Positions 30,509-39,192 of a DNA stretch of 64,000 bases are shown one piece after another; positions within the stretch are counted from its first letter, which is position 1; every line of letters starts with the position of its first letter. Source of the stretch: Synechococcus sp. CBW1107 (GTDB lineage Bacteria > Cyanobacteriota > Cyanobacteriia > PCC-6307 > Cyanobiaceae); the NCBI RefSeq assembly GCF_015841355.1, contig NZ_CP064908.1:868001-932000 (forward strand). The letters run 5' to 3'. Under the pieces are notes generated by a model, which was given only the letters and a program-made list of their open reading frames with translations, was not told the DNA's origin and ran no database searches. The position numbers and the translations under genes were made by a program.

Positions 30509-30575
30509 TTATCCATAGCCCAACTGGGCTTCCATATCCATTAATCGCTCAAGGATGCCCAGCGGCGTCCCAGCA
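30509..30575 (-). pseudogene. C-terminal fragment of an unknown protein cut by the IS element
   Basis: Right up to the IS left end the minus strand reads 'AGTPLGILERLMDMEAQLGYG' and a TAA at 30509-30511. The composition is protein-like. The rest of the gene would have lain where the IS now starts, and it does not continue on the other side. Origin unknown. Confidence 0.35.
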
Positions 30576-30594
30576 AGTGGTGTAACTCAGGAGG
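30576..30594 (+). repeat. IS left terminal inverted repeat
   Basis: AGTGGTGTAACTCAGGAGG, an exact inverted match to the right end at 32127-32145. Confidence 0.85.
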
Positions 30595-30710
30595 ATCAGC
30601 CCCGGCGTAGCCGGGGCTGACGGCTCACCTCCCTCAGATTTCAGCTGTGGCAATGGGTGGGCCGGTCTGTGACCCTGTTCGGAGAACTACCACCAAACCG
30701 AACACAGACC

Positions 30711-31967
30711 ATGACCCTCACCCATAGTGGCGCCTCCGAGCTGAGCCAGCTCATGGAGGGCACCACCGCTGGCGCCCTGATCCCAGAGATCGTGCGCCGG
30801 GGTTTCCAGGACCTGCTGGAAGCCGAGGTTTCTGCCCTCACGGGCGCTCAACTCCATGAGCGCTGCCCCGATCAGCGCTCCACCCATCGCAACGGCTACC
30901 GGGAGCGGCTGCTCACCACCCAGGTGGGCGACCTCAGCCTGGCCATTCCCAGGTTGCGGCAGGGCAGCTTCTTTCCCAGCTGGCTGGAGCCACGCCGCCG
31001 GGTGGACAAGGCGCTCTACGCCGTGGTGATGGAGGCCTACACCGGCGGGATCTCCACCCGCAAGGTCGACGCCCTGGTGGAGGCGCTGGGCGGGGCCAGC
31101 GGCATCTCCAAATCGGAGGTGAGCCGCATCTGCCAGGGGCTCGATGAGCAGGTGAAAGCCTTTCTGGGCCGGCCGCTTGACCATGCCCGCTTTCCCTACG
31201 TCTACCTCGACGCCACCTACCTCCACGGCCGCCTGGGCCGAAATATGCAGGTGGTGTCGCGGGCGGTGGTGGTGGCGATCGGCATCAATGCCCTCGGCTA
31301 CCGCGAAGTTCTCGGCATTGCCGTGGGCGACAGCGAGGCGGAGGGCTTCTGGCGTCAGTTCCTGGGCTCACTCAAGGAGCGTGGCCTCGACGGCACCCGC
31401 CTGGTGATCTCGGATGCCCACCTGGGCCTGACGGCAGCGATCAAGCGGATGTTCCAGGGCAGTAGCTGGCAGAGGTGCCGGGTGCACTTCCTGCGCAACC
31501 TGCTGAGCCATGTGCCCAAGGCCGGCCAGGACATGGTGGCCGCTGCCATGAAAGCGGTGTTCGTGATCCAGGCTCCAGATCAGGTGCGCGCCCACTGGCA
31601 GCGGGTCACCGAGATGCTGCGCAAGCAGTTCCCCGGCGCCGTGCCCGTGATGGAAGCCGCCCGGGACGACGTGCTGGCCTTCCTGCACTTCCCCCAGGAG
31701 CACTGGCGCAAGGTCTGGAGCACCAACCCGCTCGAGCGCCTCAACAAGGAGATCAAACGCCGCACCAACGTGGTCGGCATCTTCCCCAATGATCCAGCGA
31801 TCGTGCGCCTGGTGGGCAGCCAGCTGCTGGAGCAGCAGGAGGAATGGCAGCTGGAGCGTCGCCGCTTCTTCTCTGAGGCCACCATGGCCAAGATCCCAGA
31901 GCCAGAAGAGCCCTTGGAGCTCACCGATGCAGATCCGAACGCCCAGCCGGCTGCAACCATCAGCTGA
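30711..31967 (+). CDS. IS256-family transposase (Mutator type)
   Basis: 418 residues from ATG 30711. 'TAGALIPEIVRRGFQDLLEAEVSALTGA', 'RSTHRNGYRERLLTTQVGDLSLAIPRLRQGSFFP' and 'VYLDATYLHGR' (first DDE Asp), 'LVISDAHLGLTAAIKRMF' (second Asp), 'WQRCRVHFLRNLL' and 'STNPLERLNKEIKRRTNVVGIFPN' (Glu region) are all classic IS256 motifs. Full length, so probably active. Confidence 0.95.
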   Translation: MTLTHSGASELSQLMEGTTAGALIPEIVRRGFQDLLEAEVSALTGAQLHERCPDQRSTHRNGYRERLLTTQVGDLSLAIPRLRQGSFFPSWLEPRRRVDKALYAVVMEAYTGGISTRKVDALVEALGGASGISKSEVSRICQGLDEQVKAFLGRPLDHARFPYVYLDATYLHGRLGRNMQVVSRAVVVAIGINALGYREVLGIAVGDSEAEGFWRQFLGSLKERGLDGTRLVISDAHLGLTAAIKRMFQGSSWQRCRVHFLRNLLSHVPKAGQDMVAAAMKAVFVIQAPDQVRAHWQRVTEMLRKQFPGAVPVMEAARDDVLAFLHFPQEHWRKVWSTNPLERLNKEIKRRTNVVGIFPNDPAIVRLVGSQLLEQQEEWQLERRRFFSEATMAKIPEPEEPLELTDADPNAQPAATIS

Positions 31968-32006
31968 AGCGCACCAGCTTCTACCTCGATCTACACAGAA
32001 CACATC

Positions 32007-32033
32007 GATCGCTGAGTTGCCAATTCAGCGATC
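32007..32033. terminator. Hairpin downstream of the transposase
   Basis: GATCGCTGA (32007-32015) and TCAGCGATC (32025-32033) form a 9-bp stem with a 9-nt loop, 40 bp after the transposase stop. There is no long T run, so it is a hairpin of possible termination or transposition role rather than a clear intrinsic terminator. Confidence 0.4.
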
Positions 32034-32126
32034 AGGGTTCATAATGGATCAATGGAGCTGCGCAATCAGCTTCCAAGCAGTCATCCCCTGACTGCTCCTG
32101 TTCACCCTCCGGAGAGGGTCACAGGA

Positions 32127-32145
32127 CCTCCTGAGTTACACCACT
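32127..32145 (-). repeat. IS right terminal inverted repeat
   Basis: CCTCCTGAGTTACACCACT, exact reverse complement of the left terminal repeat. On the minus strand it contributes the GTGGTGTAA that ends the truncated reverse-transcriptase reading frame. Confidence 0.85.
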
Positions 32146-33690
32146 CGGAGGGGCGCTACCGTAGCAGGTGGTGCTGCAGCGGCCAAATCATAAAAACTGA
32201 CACCAGCACTCTTGAGAAAGCTGAAGCGAGGATCGCTATTAACGTGGTCGGCGCCATGAACCGATGGAAGCCACCCTTTGATATTCGCTTCATAAGCTAG
32301 TAGCCAGTTCTCGTCGTAGAGCGCTTCAGCAGTCATATAGCTGCTCCAAAGGGTAGAAACTATGCCTCCTGGTATGAGGCCTATGTCGTTTGCATGCAGT
32401 GTGAGAAGTGCAACAAACGAGTTGTCGCACTCAACAAGTGCCGTTGCTGAGGCGGAATCGATTTGGATTCTCAATGCGAGACAGGCCCAGAGCGACCATG
32501 CCACTTCGCTGGTGTGATCAAGGCGTGCGTGTTCCGTGATGATCGTGCAGAGTGCCTGCTCTAGGGCTGCATGGGGGCAGGGTTCACCATCATTCACGCG
32601 GCGAATGAGTGTCTGAAGTACATACGGAAGGCAGGCTGGCTCCGGAACTGCGCAGTTGAGGAGCAGAGTGCAAAAGATGTTCCAGTTGCTGGGATCGATT
32701 TTGATACCACTCACACGGGCAACTGCATACTGCAAGACTGGTTGGCTTGAATGAATATCCGCCAAGTAAAAAGCAAGAGTAAAATAGTCAATGAGTTCGG
32801 TTAGCTGGGATCTTGCCTTTGCAGAGTCGAGCGGATGTCGTCTCAATTGAGCCACCCAGGTCGAATCAAGAGGCGCCGGTAAATCAATTACCTTTGTCTT
32901 CCTTGGATTTAGGGCTAATTCATACTTTGCCAAGATGCTCTCTAGTCGATGAAACGCCTCATCGGCTTCCGTCCTACTTCTAAAGCCAAGTTCATAATCG
33001 TCAATATAGCGATGACCTCGCAGGCCTGGAATGGCATTTATCAATTCCTTGTCACAGGCCTGCATCAGTATTTCAGCAAGAACTAGAGATGTGTCAGGCC
33101 CAATTGGTATTCCGACTGTCTGTCCGTCTTGCGCGGATCGCACAAGCAGATCTAACCGGTTTCCCAATAGCGTGTTGTCTCTCACTCGCTTAGCAACCGC
33201 CTTAGTGTGCAGTGCCCAAGGAAGAGAATGGGTGTAGATTGAATGATAGAAACGACTAATATCTGTCTTTAGAATAAATCTGTTGTTGCGCCTTGACTCG
33301 ACTGCGTCTAGCGCACGATGGCTTTGGGGCTTAGACGCTTGTATAGCCCCTTCCCGAGGATGCGTATACTGGATTTGTTGACGACATAATAGTACCACCA
33401 ACAGCCGGAATTAAGTCGGTCCAGTTAGATACTATCTCAAGTGCCAGTGCATGTTGACTGACTGGATTTGGAACATCTAGGGCGCGGCGAAGAAGACCAC
33501 CACGGGCCAAAGAGTAACGTGCCGGCTTTGTCGTCTCTAGTCGACCATTACGCTGGCTAGAGTCAAGCTGAAAACCTGAAGGCAGAGTGGCACCTGGTGC
33601 GGTACAGGTGCTAGCAAGCGTTTCAGTTGTGAACGGGTTCGGGAGTTCTCTGGGAAAGTAACCCCTCGCGAGAATGTCTTTCAGAATCAC
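32136..33690 (-). pseudogene. Defence-type (UG/Abi-like) reverse transcriptase, one frameshift, 3' end cut by IS
   Basis: N-terminal part (GTG 33690 onward) reads 'ILARGYFPRELPNPFTTETLA' and 'YSLARGGLLRRALDVPNPVSQ'. The second part in another frame has palm motifs: A 'FILKTDISRFYHSIYTH', B 'GQTVGIPIGPDTSLVLAEIL', catalytic 'HRYIDDYELGF', D 'YELALNPRKTKVIDLP'. The two join if one C is removed from CCCC at 33347-33350 (plus strand), giving 'ASSGRAIQASKPQSHRA' and a protein of about 517 residues. The C-terminus ends '...PLRVV', the last codons coming from the IS terminal repeat. It resembles reverse transcriptases of anti-phage (DRT/UG) systems. Subclass not determined. Fifth cassette of the integron. 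Confidence 0.8.
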
Positions 33691-33714
33691 AATGCCACCA
33701 AGGTAAAAGAGTCA

Positions 33715-33804
33715 GTCCAACGCTTGCCATCACCTGGCCGCAAAGAGTGATGCGTACAGCTGATCACTTTGCGGTGGCGGCTCAGGTGAATGGCGGTGTT
33801 AGAC
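33715..33804 (-). repeat. attC site of cassette 4 (HigBA)
   Basis: Plus-strand ends GTCCAAC (33715-33721) and GTTAGAC (33798-33804). Between them the arms GCCATCACCTGGCCGC and (complement) GCCATTCACCTGAGCCGC fold with extrahelical bases, and 'CAAAGAGTGATG'/'GATCACTTTG' extend the stem. 90 nt long. The HigA stop TAA lies in the R'' core. Confidence 0.8.
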
Positions 33805-34107
33805 AGTTGCCTTCGCCTCATCTGCAGGACTTGCATGCAACTGAAGACCTAGCGCAGAGATAACCTTTAAGATCGTACCGAACTCTGGATTTCCACCAGC
33901 TGACAAAGCCTTGTAGAGGCTCTCACGACCAAGGCCAGCGTCACGGGCGATCTGTGTCATTCCTTTGGCACGAGCAATATCACCCAACGCGGCAGCGATG
34001 ACCTTGGGGTCGCCATCTTCGAGTGCTGCTTCAAGATAGGCAGCCTGGTCTTCGCTGCTTACAAGATGGTCTGCAGGATCCCAGCGAGTAGTAAACGTCT
34101 TAGTCAT
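33799..34107 (-). CDS. HigA-like antitoxin (addiction module antidote)
   Basis: 102 residues. 'YLEAALEDGDPKVIAAALGDIARAKGMTQIARDAGLGRESLYKALSAGGNPEFGTILKVISALGLQL' is the standard HTH antidote protein of RelE/HigB-type modules. The stop codon is supplied by the attC core. It follows the toxin gene by 9 bp, the toxin-first order of hig-like loci. Cassette 4. Confidence 0.88.
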   Translation of the reverse strand: MTKTFTTRWDPADHLVSSEDQAAYLEAALEDGDPKVIAAALGDIARAKGMTQIARDAGLGRESLYKALSAGGNPEFGTILKVISALGLQLHASPADEAKATV

Positions 34108-34116
34108 GAGTCTCTC

Positions 34117-34407
34117 CTAAAGGTTTCGCGCAAGACTTTTAGCTTGCTTAACATCCTGTGCTTGAGAGGATTTGTCTCCACCTGCTAGAAGCAGGATGAA
34201 CTCCTCACCGTTCTGGATGAAATATATTCGGTAGCCTGGGCCGAATTGAATCCGAAGTTCGGAGACGCCTTCCCCGACTGGGCGTACATCCCCAGGATTA
34301 CCAAGAGATAGACGCCTTACTCGAATGTCTATTCGCGCCTTGGCTGCGCGATCACGCAGGCCCCTAAACCAATTGGCATAAGCGGTAGTCTCCCGAACCT
34401 CCAGCAT
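34117..34407 (-). CDS. RelE/HigB-like toxin (addiction module killer protein)
   Basis: 96 residues from ATG 34407 ('[64 protein letters not shown]'). The '[16 protein letters not shown]' strand and '[18 protein letters not shown]' end are diagnostic of the RelE-type killer family, ribosome-dependent mRNA endonucleases. An upstream ATG would add six residues. Toxin-antitoxin cassettes are common in integrons and may stabilise arrays. Confidence 0.88.
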
Positions 34408-34458
34408 GGAAGCACTGTATCCCAAGAGATACGCAAGCGCAACCCACTCCTTTCGTCT

Positions 34459-34543
34459 GTCTAACGCTCCAGATCAGAAGCGGGGCAAATCTTTGGCATG
34501 GAAACATTCTTCGCCCCCCGTCTTCTGTATCTGGATGTTAGGA
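34459..34543 (-). repeat. attC site of cassette 3
   Basis: 85 nt. Plus-strand ends GTCTAAC (34459-34465) and GTTAGGA (34537-34543). Arms CGCTCCAGATCAGAAGCG and CGTCTTCTGTATCTGGATG pair with single extrahelical bases. The R'-side arm is identical over 22 nt to that of the attC at 36500-36584. GCGTTAG on the minus strand sets the cassette direction. Confidence 0.85.
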
Positions 34544-35002
34544 GGGATGCGAAAGATCGGCTGGCTTCTCATATCTTTTTAGAATACGGTCCATGTCCGA
34601 AAGAACGCTAGCTTTATCCCTCCTCTGAGCAACGACTTGTCTGCTACCAAAAAAGAATGATAAGCCTCCAGACAAGCTTGTCGCAGCGAATAGGCCCCAG
34701 CACAAATAGGCAGGTGTATAGTTAGCAACTTCCTGGACGCTACACGCTCCTGTGGCAGTCCTTCCGGCAATGCAGTCTTTTGGCGGCATCCAATGGAAAG
34801 CCAACGCCCCGAAGAATGCGGATCCGGCAATTCCAACCAGAATACCTCCTATTGTATGCCAGAGATTCGCATCATCTTCAATCTGATCAACTTTTTCCCT
34901 GAGATCATTCCACTCCTCAACCGGGAGGAAGAATGCCGCCTGCTCAACTGGCTGTAGAATCGTATACTTCCTAGATGTCGTAAATACTGATGGTTCAGTC
35001 AT
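34538..35002 (-). CDS. Two-helix membrane protein, unknown (cassette 3, second gene)
   Basis: 154 residues from ATG 35002, which overlaps the stop of the zinc-ribbon gene by 8 bp. A cytosolic N-terminal part ('FFLPVEEWNDLREKVDQIED'), helix 1 'GGILVGIAGSAFFGALAF', a short loop with two Cys ('DCIAGRTATGACSV'), helix 2 'YLCWGLFAATSLSGGLSFFFG', then a charged tail with 'LSDMDRILKRYE'. The stop TAA lies in the attC core. Function unknown. Confidence 0.7.
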   Translation of the reverse strand: MTEPSVFTTSRKYTILQPVEQAAFFLPVEEWNDLREKVDQIEDDANLWHTIGGILVGIAGSAFFGALAFHWMPPKDCIAGRTATGACSVQEVANYTPAYLCWGLFAATSLSGGLSFFFGSRQVVAQRRDKASVLSDMDRILKRYEKPADLSHPS

Positions 35003-35258
35003 TGCTGCCACCTTCTTGAGCAACAACGCCAGCTACTATTGCATTTATCAAGACTGTATTTCCACAGTTTGAGCATGTGACCGGAAGTACTGGAACTATA
35101 GGTACAGGGCCAACCACTAAACCACCACCATGAAACTCCCTCAACTCGTAGATCTCCTCCGGTACATTCCAAGCAGACTCTCCACACATGGTGCAGTTCT
35201 TATTCGTCCATTTCTGCTCCAAATGCTGGACTAGCCGAGTTCGCTGAGTTTCTTCCAT
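34995..35258 (-). CDS. Small zinc-ribbon-like protein, unknown (cassette 3, first gene)
   Basis: 87 residues. Two CxxC pairs ('NKNCTMCGES' and 'VTCSNCGNT') about 40 residues apart can bind one zinc. Between them is a hydrophobic Gly/Val/Pro-rich segment. It ends inside the start of the membrane-protein gene (ATGACTGA overlap), so the two are translated as a pair. No known family recognised. Confidence 0.7.
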   Translation of the reverse strand: MEETQRTRLVQHLEQKWTNKNCTMCGESAWNVPEEIYELREFHGGGLVVGPVPIVPVLPVTCSNCGNTVLINAIVAGVVAQEGGSND

Positions 35259-35314
35259 TGCTCAACTGTGATTTGAAGGTTTGCAATCATAGCTGCAAGG
35301 CTGGATTCGGCTCC

Positions 35315-35374
35315 TCCTAACGCTCCGGTTCAGCGGCGGCGCGCGGCGCCGTCCGCTGCAACCGGTTGTTAGGT
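35315..35374 (-). repeat. attC site of cassette 2 (60 nt, compact)
   Basis: Plus-strand ends TCCTAAC (35315-35321) and GTTAGGT (35368-35374). A near-perfect stem 'CCGGTTCAGCGG'/'CCGCTGCAACCGG' with a GC-rich loop. The short form resembles classic 59-60 bp elements and differs from the other three attC sites in this array. Confidence 0.85.
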
Positions 35375-35455
35375 GGATGCACCGTACGGAAGCCAAACAG
35401 GAGTGATTCCGTGATCCACAATCGATCTAGTAAACCGTTCACCGCGGTCGCTCGA

Positions 35456-36454
35456 TCACCCTAGTGCGCGGACGTGCGTCAGCATCGGAATGACTTCCAC
35501 GCTGACATTAGCTCGGCAGAAGGTCTTCTCTAGGATGTCATCTGAAATCGTGGCCGCCAACGTCTCCGGGATCTTGCCGCCGAAACGCCGCCGTAAAATG
35601 ACGTCAACGAGCGCGTCCTTCTCCCCCAACAGCGTCACGTTGACCGTGCTCCCAATCGGAATGAAACCGGGAACATAATGGAGGGTCAGTGCAACGGTCT
35701 CGCGGATACTCTTCTTGAGCTCGAGGTGACGACGACGCACCCCGCGGATCACGAGGATTGTGATGCTGCCAACGAGGTCCAACGCAGTTACGTTGAGCAC
35801 CAGCAGGCCAAATGCATTCCAGCTGTGCTCGGGGCTTCCGAGCGCCCATCCGATGCCGATTACCGCGGCTGGGGGAATGAGCGAGATAGCCACCTGGACC
35901 CCGATGACTGCGTCAATGACCTGTCCCCACAGCCGTTCTATGGTGCTGGGTTCTGTGATCAGCGCAAGCGAAGCGGCCGCGCCCGCTGAAACCGCAATAA
36001 GCACGCTCAAGGCCACGTCTCGTGATGTCGGCATCGCTCTAAGTGCGATCTCGGGCGTAATGTCGATGCCCGGAAAATACTGTCGCAGTGCAGACGTAAT
36101 TAGAGCAGCTACACAGGCACCAATTACCAGCAGGCCGACGAACTGCTTGACGATTCCTCCAAAGAAGACAGCCCTGTTACGAAACAGCGCACCGATACAG
36201 ACTGCACGTGAGGGCGCCATAAAAGGGGCGACACACATCGAACCGATGACGGCTGCCGCGCTGTTGAGCAACAGTCCAGCCGTGGCCATCACGGTCGCAG
36301 CCACCACCATCGAGAGGTACCCGCCAGTTATGGCCCCTCCAGCGACGGCACGCCGCTCTAATGTGGTGTGGTAGTTGGGGATGCCCCAAATGCCCACACC
36401 TTGAACAACTGAGTCGTCGCTGCGGAGTATTCCTGTGGGAGGCGGAGTTGTCAT
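35456..36454 (-). CDS. DUF389 family membrane protein (cassette 2)
   Basis: 332 residues. 'YLSMVVAATVMATAGLLLNSAAAVIGSMCVAPFMAPSRAVCIGAL' and further helices ('VIGVQVAISLIPPAAVIGIGWAL', 'LLVLNVTALDLVGSITILVIRG') are the DUF389 signature: the 'N..A.viGsMlvaP.m.P' motif is nearly intact. About seven helices and a C-terminal soluble domain. Function of DUF389 is unknown. A large membrane protein is an uncommon cassette load. Confidence 0.85.
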   Translation of the reverse strand: MTTPPPTGILRSDDSVVQGVGIWGIPNYHTTLERRAVAGGAITGGYLSMVVAATVMATAGLLLNSAAAVIGSMCVAPFMAPSRAVCIGALFRNRAVFFGGIVKQFVGLLVIGACVAALITSALRQYFPGIDITPEIALRAMPTSRDVALSVLIAVSAGAAASLALITEPSTIERLWGQVIDAVIGVQVAISLIPPAAVIGIGWALGSPEHSWNAFGLLVLNVTALDLVGSITILVIRGVRRRHLELKKSIRETVALTLHYVPGFIPIGSTVNVTLLGEKDALVDVILRRRFGGKIPETLAATISDDILEKTFCRANVSVEVIPMLTHVRALG

Positions 36455-36499
36455 CGATACACTAGGTTTCCGGCAACAGAAGCGCGAGCAGGCTTATCC

Positions 36500-36584
36500 A
36501 CCTAACGCTCCAGATCAGAAGCGAGCAGGAATCTCGGCATAGCAGGTCGCTATTGCTACCGCCTTCTGCATCTGGTTGTTCGAA
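36500..36584 (-). repeat. attC site of cassette 1
   Basis: 85 nt. Plus-strand ends ACCTAAC (36500-36506) and GTTCGAA (36578-36584). Arms CGCTCCAGATCAGAAGCG and CGCCTTCTGCATCTGGTTG pair with extrahelical G bases. The R'' core is off-consensus (TTCGAAC on the minus strand) but exactly matches the start of cassette 1 at 37214-37220. Confidence 0.85.
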
Positions 36585-36779
36585 GTGTCGTTTCCCCACA
36601 GGAAACGTCCGCAGTCCTCAGCTTCAGATGCAGTACGGATGAAGGGCGGGTGAACTCATCTGCTTGCTGATGTCCGCCAGGATAGCTTTGCGGCAACGCC
36701 GCCCATGTGATCGCTTGGGGCCTTGGGGTCAAAGTTACAGGCGACAACTTTCCTGACGGCGGGGGAAATTGAGCAATTC

Positions 36780-37058
36780 TTAGATATAAATGCGTGATCG
36801 TCCGGTTCCGCTAAGACGGTACGTGCCACCCCTTGGGCCTGTAAACCACTCGGATGGTCGGTTCATTTTCGCAATCTCATTCTTTTCCGCAAGGGTAAGA
36901 TCAAGCTCTTCAACGGAGACCATCTCAGGCTCCCAACCCAAGCACTGGATTAAATAGTCCACTGCATCATCTGCCTCCTCTGGCGTACGACAGAGACCTC
37001 CATCAGCGCCGAATCCAGAACCCCAAACGACAACACGCCAGTACCTGCGTCTATCCAT
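36780..37058 (-). CDS. Orphan protein of cassette 1
   Basis: 92 residues: 'MDRRRYWRVVVWGSGFGADGG', 'TPEEADDAVDYLIQCLGWEPEMVSVEELDL' and an Arg/Gly-rich end 'GTYRLSGTGRSRIYI'. A small alpha/beta protein, no membrane segment. About 195 bp of non-coding sequence separates its stop from the attC. The 'GG..C.T.EEA...V' layout recalls small DUF proteins found in cassettes, but I cannot name a family. Confidence 0.6.
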   Translation of the reverse strand: MDRRRYWRVVVWGSGFGADGGLCRTPEEADDAVDYLIQCLGWEPEMVSVEELDLTLAEKNEIAKMNRPSEWFTGPRGGTYRLSGTGRSRIYI

Positions 37059-37219
37059 TCAAAGCTGCCTCTCTAATGCTGGAGATTGTAAAAGGGAAGA
37101 AGATTTCGTTTTGGCATTTGAGAGCTATCCCGGCCATTCGGTTTGACACTTACACTTTTGGAAGAACGCAGGCCTACTCGTGATCATAAGCCAACCAGGT
37201 GGATTCACGATCCTTCGAA

Positions 37220-37388
37220 CGCTGAATGGGCGGATCCAGTGAATACCGCCATCTTGCCTCTCTTAGCAGCATACGAGCGGCTCGGCCTGAGAGCAACAGC
37301 GTGAAAACCTTGTCCTCGCGCTGAAGTAGCCGAGATCCCTCACACGTCACGGATTCTTAGGCGGATCCGCCTAAGGCCGTTTGTGCCG
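37220..37388. other. Predicted attI region between intI and cassette 1
   Basis: Starts at the G of GTTCGAA (plus 37214-37220), where cassette 1 begins on the minus strand, and reaches the intI stop. No reading frame of note. It contains a perfect 20-bp palindrome, CTTAGGCGGATCCGCCTAAG, at 37356-37375, about 13 bp from the intI stop. The palindrome has no T run and may be an integrase-binding or structural element. Confidence 0.65.
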
Positions 37389-38360
37389 TTACAAAAGGTC
37401 GGCGGGGCTGCTCACGCCCAGAGGGCCTCGATTCAGCACATGCGTGTAGATCATCGTAGTCTTGACATCGCTGTGTCCCATCAATTCCTGGATCGTGCGG
37501 ATATCCTGCCCTCGCTCCAGCAGGTGGGTGGCAAATGAATGGCGGAAGGTGTGAGGTGTCGCCGGCTTGTTGACACCTGCCGCCAGCACGGCTCGCCGCA
37601 CACCCTTCTGGATCAGACTGGGATCCAGATGATGCCGACCCTGTTGGCCGGTGGCTGGATCAGTCCAGCGATGCGTCTGCGGAAACACCCACTGCCAGGA
37701 CCACTCCACCGCGGAATTGGGGTATTTCCGTCCCAGCGCATGCGGCAGCTGCACCCGGCCATAGCCCTCGGCCAGGTCCGTCTGATGCAACCGACGGACC
37801 TTCTCCAGGTGCAGCCTCAGCTTCTCCCCGACACGGCTCGGCAACATGGTGCGGCGATCCTTGGACCCCTTGCCATCGCGCACGGTGAGCTGCTTCCGGC
37901 TGAAATCCAGGTCCTGCACCCGCAGCCGCAGGGCCTCCAGGAGCCGCAGCCCACTGCCGTAAAGCAGCCCCGCCACAAGTGCCTCCACGCCATCCATCCG
38001 CTCCAGCACCGCCCGCACCTCCTCCGGCGTCAGCACCACCGGCAGCCGCTTGCTCGTCCGCGCCCGCACCACACCGTCGAGCGCCACATCCCGCTCCAAC
38101 AGCTCCCGGAACAGAAACAGCAGCGCACTCAGGGCCTGGTTCTGGGTTGAGGCACTCACCTGCAGGTCCACCGCCAGGTGGTTGAGGAAGGCATTCACCT
38201 CAGAACTGCCCATCTCGCGGGGATGCCGTCTCCCGTGAAAGCGCAGAAAGCGGCGCAGCCACTGCTCGTAGGTCGTCACGGTCCGTCGGGCGTAGTGCCG
38301 CACCTGCAGTTCCTCCCGGTAGCGCTGAATCAATCCGGGGGAGCGGGCTACAGGGACCAT
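37389..38360 (-). CDS. intI: Integron integrase IntI
   Basis: 323 residues from ATG 38360 ('[43 protein letters not shown]'), the normal length. Tyrosine recombinase residues: Arg in '[14 protein letters not shown]', '[12 protein letters not shown]', '[18 protein letters not shown]' (nucleophile Tyr). The extra domain found only in IntI ('[21 protein letters not shown]') is present. An in-frame start at 38489 would add residues unlike the family. Transcribed toward the cassettes, the reverse of class 1 integrons. It shares a ~100-bp divergent region with the methyltransferase gene. Confidence 0.95.
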
Positions 38361-38460
38361 GAGCAGAGGTTGAGCAACCTGCGTGAAGTGTTCCCACGCC
38401 AGGGCGCCTACGCTCAGCGCACGATCGGCGGCAGACCGCAACGGCCGCCCGGCCTCAGGC

Positions 38461-39192
38461 ATGGACTTCTTCGACCGCCAATGGAGCACCTACCGCCGGG
38501 TGGTCGACCACGACCTGATGGAGCATCAGGCGCTCTCAGCGGCCACCACCGCGGCGATCGAGGGCTGGCTGGCCCAGCGGCCCCCTGGATCGCCGCAGCC
38601 CCACATGGTGGACCTGGGCTGCGGGGACCTCGCCTTGCTGGCGCCGCTGCTGCGCCGCTTGCCCCTGGGCTCCTACCACGGGCTTGATCTCTCCGCCCCC
38701 GTGCTGCCCCGCGCCGCCGCGCAGCTGCAGGGGGTGCCCTACCCCTGCGCCTGGCGGGAGCAGGATCTGCTCTCCTGGGCCCTTGAAGGATCCGTCCCCG
38801 CTGATGCCGGTTCCGCCAGCACCGCTCCGGTGGACCTGATCCACAGTTCCTTCGCCGTGCATCACCTCAGCGACGAACAGAAGGGCCAGTTCCTCGCTGG
38901 AGCCCGCTCCCGCGTGGCCCCCGACGGGATGCTGCTCTGGGCCGACGTGTTCCGGGATCCCGGTGAAAGCCGCGACAGCTACCTGCAGCGCTACGTGCAG
39001 CGGATCCGCAAGGGCTGGACGTCAATCCCCGCCGAAGAAGGCCAGAGGGTGATCGATCACCTCAGCCAGTTCGATTTTCCAGCCGACGCCGCGGCCATTG
39101 AATCAATGGCCGAAGCCTGCGGCTGGGGCTGGCAGTGGCTCTGGCGCGGACAGCACCGAGCCGAAGCCCTGGCCAGGCTCACACCCCTCTGA
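38461..39192 (+). CDS. Class I SAM-dependent methyltransferase
   Basis: 243 residues. Motif I '[17 protein letters not shown]', '[11 protein letters not shown]', '[39 protein letters not shown]' are type 11/12 methyltransferase motifs. The start '[22 protein letters not shown]' resembles small-molecule methyltransferases. Substrate unknown. Confidence 0.85.

Follow-up and report, generated by a model that had tools for sequence, protein, structure and literature searches.

Cassette boundaries and attI junction of a chromosomal integron of the inverted type in Synechococcus sp. CBW1107

Introduction

Inverted, or reverse, integrons are known from Treponema denticola and its relatives, which have the same layout and G|TT junction as the locus reported here and in which attI has likewise been placed by core matching (PMC3607928, PMC7691350). 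Specifically, attI was positioned through a GTTAGGT match in one study (PMC3607928), and another has named DR1/DR2-like repeats in the attI of a Treponema (PMC7691350). The class 1 integron also has a G|TT crossover and an L/R pair with accessory integrase sites upstream (PMC3518468, PMC8946536); these accessory sites, DR1 and DR2 of attI1, bind IntI1 (PMC3518468). Integrons are already known in Cyanobacteria, for which a taxon-specific attC covariance model was trained, and inverted IntI proteins were placed as a sub-clade of a soil/freshwater clade (PMC8352920).

How cassettes are delimited is equally well established. ACID lets a cassette begin at the first T of one R' and end at the G of the following one, and assigns to it the attC of its circular form (PMC2674596). 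The rule that the core at a cassette's 5' boundary complements the R'' core of its own attC follows from circular cassette excision; it is the standard cassette definition and annotation practice, and in itself teaches nothing new. Here we apply it to a cyanobacterial integron; the passages of PMC8352920 that we consulted give no account of its array or of the architecture of its attI. Compared with the Treponema integrons, the host is cyanobacterial and the cassettes are different. In contrast to the class 1 integrase, which is divergent from its cassettes, the integrase at this locus is co-directional with them, and instead of the close direct repeats of attI1 the locus has a dyad 147 bp away.

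Results and discussion

An integron of the inverted type

The window, by which we mean the whole stretch of 64,000 nucleotides that was analysed, extends from position 868001 to 932000 of a single-contig genome of 3.2 Mb, whose relatives are by name Cyanobium, Synechococcus and Vulcanococcus. An intact intI gene on the minus strand (37389..38489) encodes an integron integrase of 366 aa, which matches TIGR02249 at 461 bits (cut-off 265) and the V. cholerae IntI4 structure 2a3v at 295 bits, the latter alignment spanning the IntI-specific insert. The catalytic residues are present, and R182, H313, R316, H339 and Y348 are invariant among 11 relatives. The gene reads toward attI, which lies at its 3' end, and the cassettes continue in the same direction; it is this co-directionality that makes the integron 'inverted' or 'reverse'. 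The attI junction at 37219/37220 is followed by four complete cassettes and a fifth that is truncated by an IS256-family element. We are almost certain that the locus is a chromosomal integron of the inverted type in a Cyanobium/Synechococcus-type cyanobacterium. Going by established integron knowledge, IntI would be active in CBW1107, the folded bottom strand of attC would be the strand used in recombination, and the cassettes would be expressed.

The cassette-sense strand of the array is the minus strand. Cassette 1 (36506..37219, 714 bp) has an ORF of 92 aa without a family (36780-37058) and ends in attC1 (36500-36584, 63.7 bits). Cassette 2 (35321..36505, 1185 bp) encodes a DUF389 membrane protein (35456-36454; PF04087, 1.9e-20) and carries attC2 (35315-35374, 60.9 bits), and cassette 3 (34465..35320, 856 bp) holds two ORFs without a family (34995-35258 and 34538-35026) and attC3 (34459-34543, 70.2 bits). 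A toxin-antitoxin pair occupies cassette 4 (33721..34464, 744 bp), with a RelE/ParE-type toxin at 34117-34425 (TIGR02683) and an HI1420-type antitoxin at 33799-34107 (TIGR02684), the end of the antitoxin gene overlapping the R'' of attC4 (33715-33804, minus strand, 73.6 bits). Cassette 5 (32157..33720, minus strand) begins with the 5' core GTTGGAC and lacks an attC. The IS256-family element (30565..32156, plus strand; transposase 30657-31967, NF033543; 30-bp terminal inverted repeats at 30565-30594 and 32127-32156) cut this cassette off, removing its end and its attC; a search beyond the element found neither the tail nor the attC.

As cargo, cassette 5 carries a defence-associated, Drt4-like reverse transcriptase (32136-33690, minus strand), the frame of which is broken in the window into 33331-33690 and 32136-33401; the PADLOC Drt4 matches to the two frames are 1e-156 and 1e-28.

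A covariance model built from 59 attC sites of the family, the window's four included, matched exactly four sites in the 64-kb window, at 61-74 bits. In a stem-and-core scan the same four scored 35-39 over a window background of ≤24, while an Rfam search of the region gave no match. Across the 59 sites the outer hairpin consists of 16 pairs with one unpaired base in L'' at a constant position, and compensatory changes occur at 13 of the 16 stem pairs. Taken as bottom strand, each of the four sites in the window folds better than shuffled sequences (z -2.3 to -6.6), attC1 giving the least clear fold (z -2.3).

Core matches in the window

The first-pass annotation had proposed that the R'' cores of cassettes 1-4 are exact complements of the 7-bp cores at the cassettes' own 5' boundaries, and all eight 7-mers that it listed occur exactly as described: GTTCGAA for cassette 1 (36578 with 37214), GTTAGGT for cassette 2 (35368 with 36500), GTTAGGA for cassette 3 (34537 with 35315) and GTTAGAC for cassette 4 (33798 with 34459). 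Read on the minus strand, the pairs of R'' and 5' core are TTCGAAC/GTTCGAA, ACCTAAC/GTTAGGT, TCCTAAC/GTTAGGA and GTCTAAC/GTTAGAC respectively. The informative part of each core is four bases, because GTT/AAC is common to all, and the match of cassette 1 is identical on either strand because TTCGAA is palindromic. Two random cores from the integron family match with a probability of 0.064, so that four matches out of four would arise by chance with a probability of ∼1.7e-5. The annotation had also called TTCGAAC off-consensus, which does not hold: with 15 uses, only one other R'' core is commoner in the integron family.

The matches are those expected if, as in known integrons, IntI recombines the folded bottom-strand attC of a circular cassette with double-stranded attI. 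The core would be cut between its G and its TT (37220/37219), and insertion would split the cassette's R' core, the G being kept at the 3' end and TTNNNN going to the 5' end. As a result of this split, the 5' boundary of a linear cassette should complement its own R'', and the R' at its 3' end should be that of the next cassette. The core matches would then be a footprint of the circular state. The circular state had been put forward in the annotation together with two ways of probing it, attC folding and the position of boundaries in related strains, and both agree with it: the hairpins are conserved in the family and fold in the window as given above, and the boundaries fall at the same positions in the attI flank of a close relative and in recurring copies of cassettes 4 and 5.

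The core rule in relatives

Among relatives, the R' of one attC was the complement of the R'' of the next in 51 of 72 neighbouring pairs, counting only pairs <3 kb apart, whereas 10,000 permutations gave 4.6 pairs on average and never more than 13. In their laid-out form, single attC sites rarely have two cores that complement each other (14/124). The rule is broken by the other 21 of the 72 pairs (∼29%), many of which either deviate at a single position or bridge an overlooked site. For attI, the rule bears out the junction at 37219/37220 by giving the same junction, 139-184 bp after intI and with a conserved flank, in 26 of 41 relatives. In L033 (91% IntI identity), which of the relatives with attC sites is the nearest, the attI flank resembles that of the window (148/172 bp) and the resemblance is lost directly past the core (11/37 bp alike), where different cassettes are found.

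Recurrence of cassettes in other genomes

Cassette 4 was found in two other genera at 93-94% identity. Homology spans positions 399-1146 and 397-1146 of the query, in which the predicted cassette occupies 401-1144; the cassette is fourth in the window and lies directly after an attI-like sequence in one of these genomes (L163), and its neighbours differ. A copy of cassette 5 in another genus (L190) is 97% identical and starts at the same base. There the reverse transcriptase frame is open over 536 codons, and the attC that is lost in the window has the R'' GTCCAAC, the complement predicted from the core GTTGGAC. For cassettes 1-3, only partial or coding-only nucleotide matches were obtained in family genomes. 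No relative covering the whole of cassette 1 turned up in 300 genomes of the family, and the evidence for its edges therefore consists of the matching cores, the folding of its attC and the shared flank of attI. As discrete units with exact edges in several genomes, integron cassettes appear, from these sequence comparisons, to move between genera.

An array of this kind could be a fossil, its integron once functional, its IntI now inactive and its cassettes fixed. The IS256 element that ends the array, with the loss of the attC of cassette 5, would fit such a state, as would the broken frame of the reverse transcriptase gene and a second genomic copy of intI that is a pseudogene with two stops. 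However, intI itself is complete and encodes every catalytic residue, the same attI flank is directly followed by other cassettes in L033, and cassette 4 is common to other genera at 93-94%. The last two points indicate fairly recent exchange in the lineage, and we consider a fossil array unlikely. Spread of the cassettes between genomes by homologous recombination or transposition, without IntI, might be suspected from the IS256 element at the array end and from lone attC sites elsewhere in the genome, but at each side tested the homology of cassettes 4 and 5 breaks off no more than 4 bp from G|TT and the neighbours beyond are different, which makes this route very improbable. The notion that the matches reflect chance or consensus, complementary pairs being expected anyway among constrained cores that are all near GTTRRRY, is refuted by the permutation test and by the out-of-sample prediction of the L190 R'' core, and has practically no prospect of being right given the four-of-four match in the window and the scarcity of complementary cores within single attC sites.

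Insertion of circular cassettes by IntI is almost certainly the right reading. What is directly observed is the anatomy of the integron, the core rule, hairpins that are conserved and cassette edges that are exact in several genomes; for a cyanobacterial integron, these observations settle to the base where attI is joined and where each cassette starts and stops.

A distal dyad in attI

On its minus strand, attI ends in a crossover element (37220..37242; ...CACTGGATCCGCCCATTCAGCG) that closes with the G at 37220, the G|TT cut lying between 37220 and 37219. It is preceded, ∼46 bp before the crossover, by a middle half-element, TATGCTGCTAA, with approximate limits 37256..37276 (minus strand). 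Just past the intI stop lies a distal dyad, CTTAGGCGGATCCGCCTAAG (37356..37375), which is a perfect 20-bp palindrome and has GGATCCGCC in common with the crossover element.

This layout of crossover dyad, half-element ∼46 bp upstream and distal dyad recurs in inverted integrons. Self-similarity averaged over 48 loci peaks at 46 bp, corresponding to the middle half-element, and in 32 of the 48 inverted integrons the crossover follows the centre of the distal dyad by 147.2 bp (sd 2.7). The position of the dyad varies less with respect to the crossover (sd 2.7 bp) than with respect to the intI stop (sd 5.0 bp). When one locus was taken per IntI cluster at 75% identity, giving 11 clusters, the best self-match fell at 143-152 bp in 7 of this small sample (binomial, 5e-6). 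Similarity between the distal and crossover elements is also higher when both come from the same locus (0.536) than when they come from different loci (0.451), the maximum of 2000 permutations being 0.532. No dyad at -147 was seen in canonical integrons, of which five junctions were usable.

A role of the dyad as intI terminator was considered and rejected: although an RNA hairpin can form, a T run is absent, and the dyad keeps its distance to the crossover more closely than that to the stop codon. No intrinsic terminator was found near attI and no sigma-70-like promoter in the attI region. By analogy with DR1/DR2 of attI1, the distal dyad is possibly an accessory integrase site. We give slightly less than an even chance to the fuller proposal that the attI of inverted integrons is bipartite, with a second dyad, similar to an integrase site and at a constant ∼147 bp upstream, that would bind IntI and loop or order the attI complex, as a long-range counterpart of DR1/DR2. 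If bound by IntI, the spaced dyad would give inverted integrons an attI architecture of their own that can be tested. Our search of the open-licence literature found no description of the distal dyad; part of the attI layout may nevertheless be known, because a Treponema attI has named DR1/DR2-like repeats (PMC7691350).

As a separate matter, attC calls at +7 in two relatives (L021 and L066) proved to be the distal attI dyad miscalled, and are not real attC sites.

Orientation and distribution

Judged from the side of the attC sites, the integrase is co-directional with the cassettes in cyanobacterial, chlorobial, planctomycete and treponemal relatives. A tree of 89 integrases needs one change of orientation, although this is an unrooted quick tree with moderate deep support; in the same tree the window IntI belongs to a supported cyanobacterial group, all members of which are inverted. 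The IntI in a record labelled T. denticola is ∼60% identical to the window IntI. Inverted integrons are common in the host family, a close IntI being present in 71 of 400 genomes, and their cassettes are exchanged between genera. The filamentous cyanobacterium CCP2 has an integron of canonical orientation in the other group of the tree, and both layouts therefore occur in the phylum Cyanobacteria.

Other integron remnants in the genome

A genome-wide search with the attC covariance model returned lone attC-like sites away from any integrase, at 272881, 284801, 391789, 849016, 849995 and 3046241 of contig C1 and at other positions; the sites at 849016 and 849995 make up a pair between which the core rule is not obeyed. 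The genome also has a second integron integrase (C1:1269852-1270631), 66% identical to the first, which is a pseudogene with two TGA stops. A degenerate attC-like hairpin lies ∼4.5 kb from it, and the locus is a decayed second integron.
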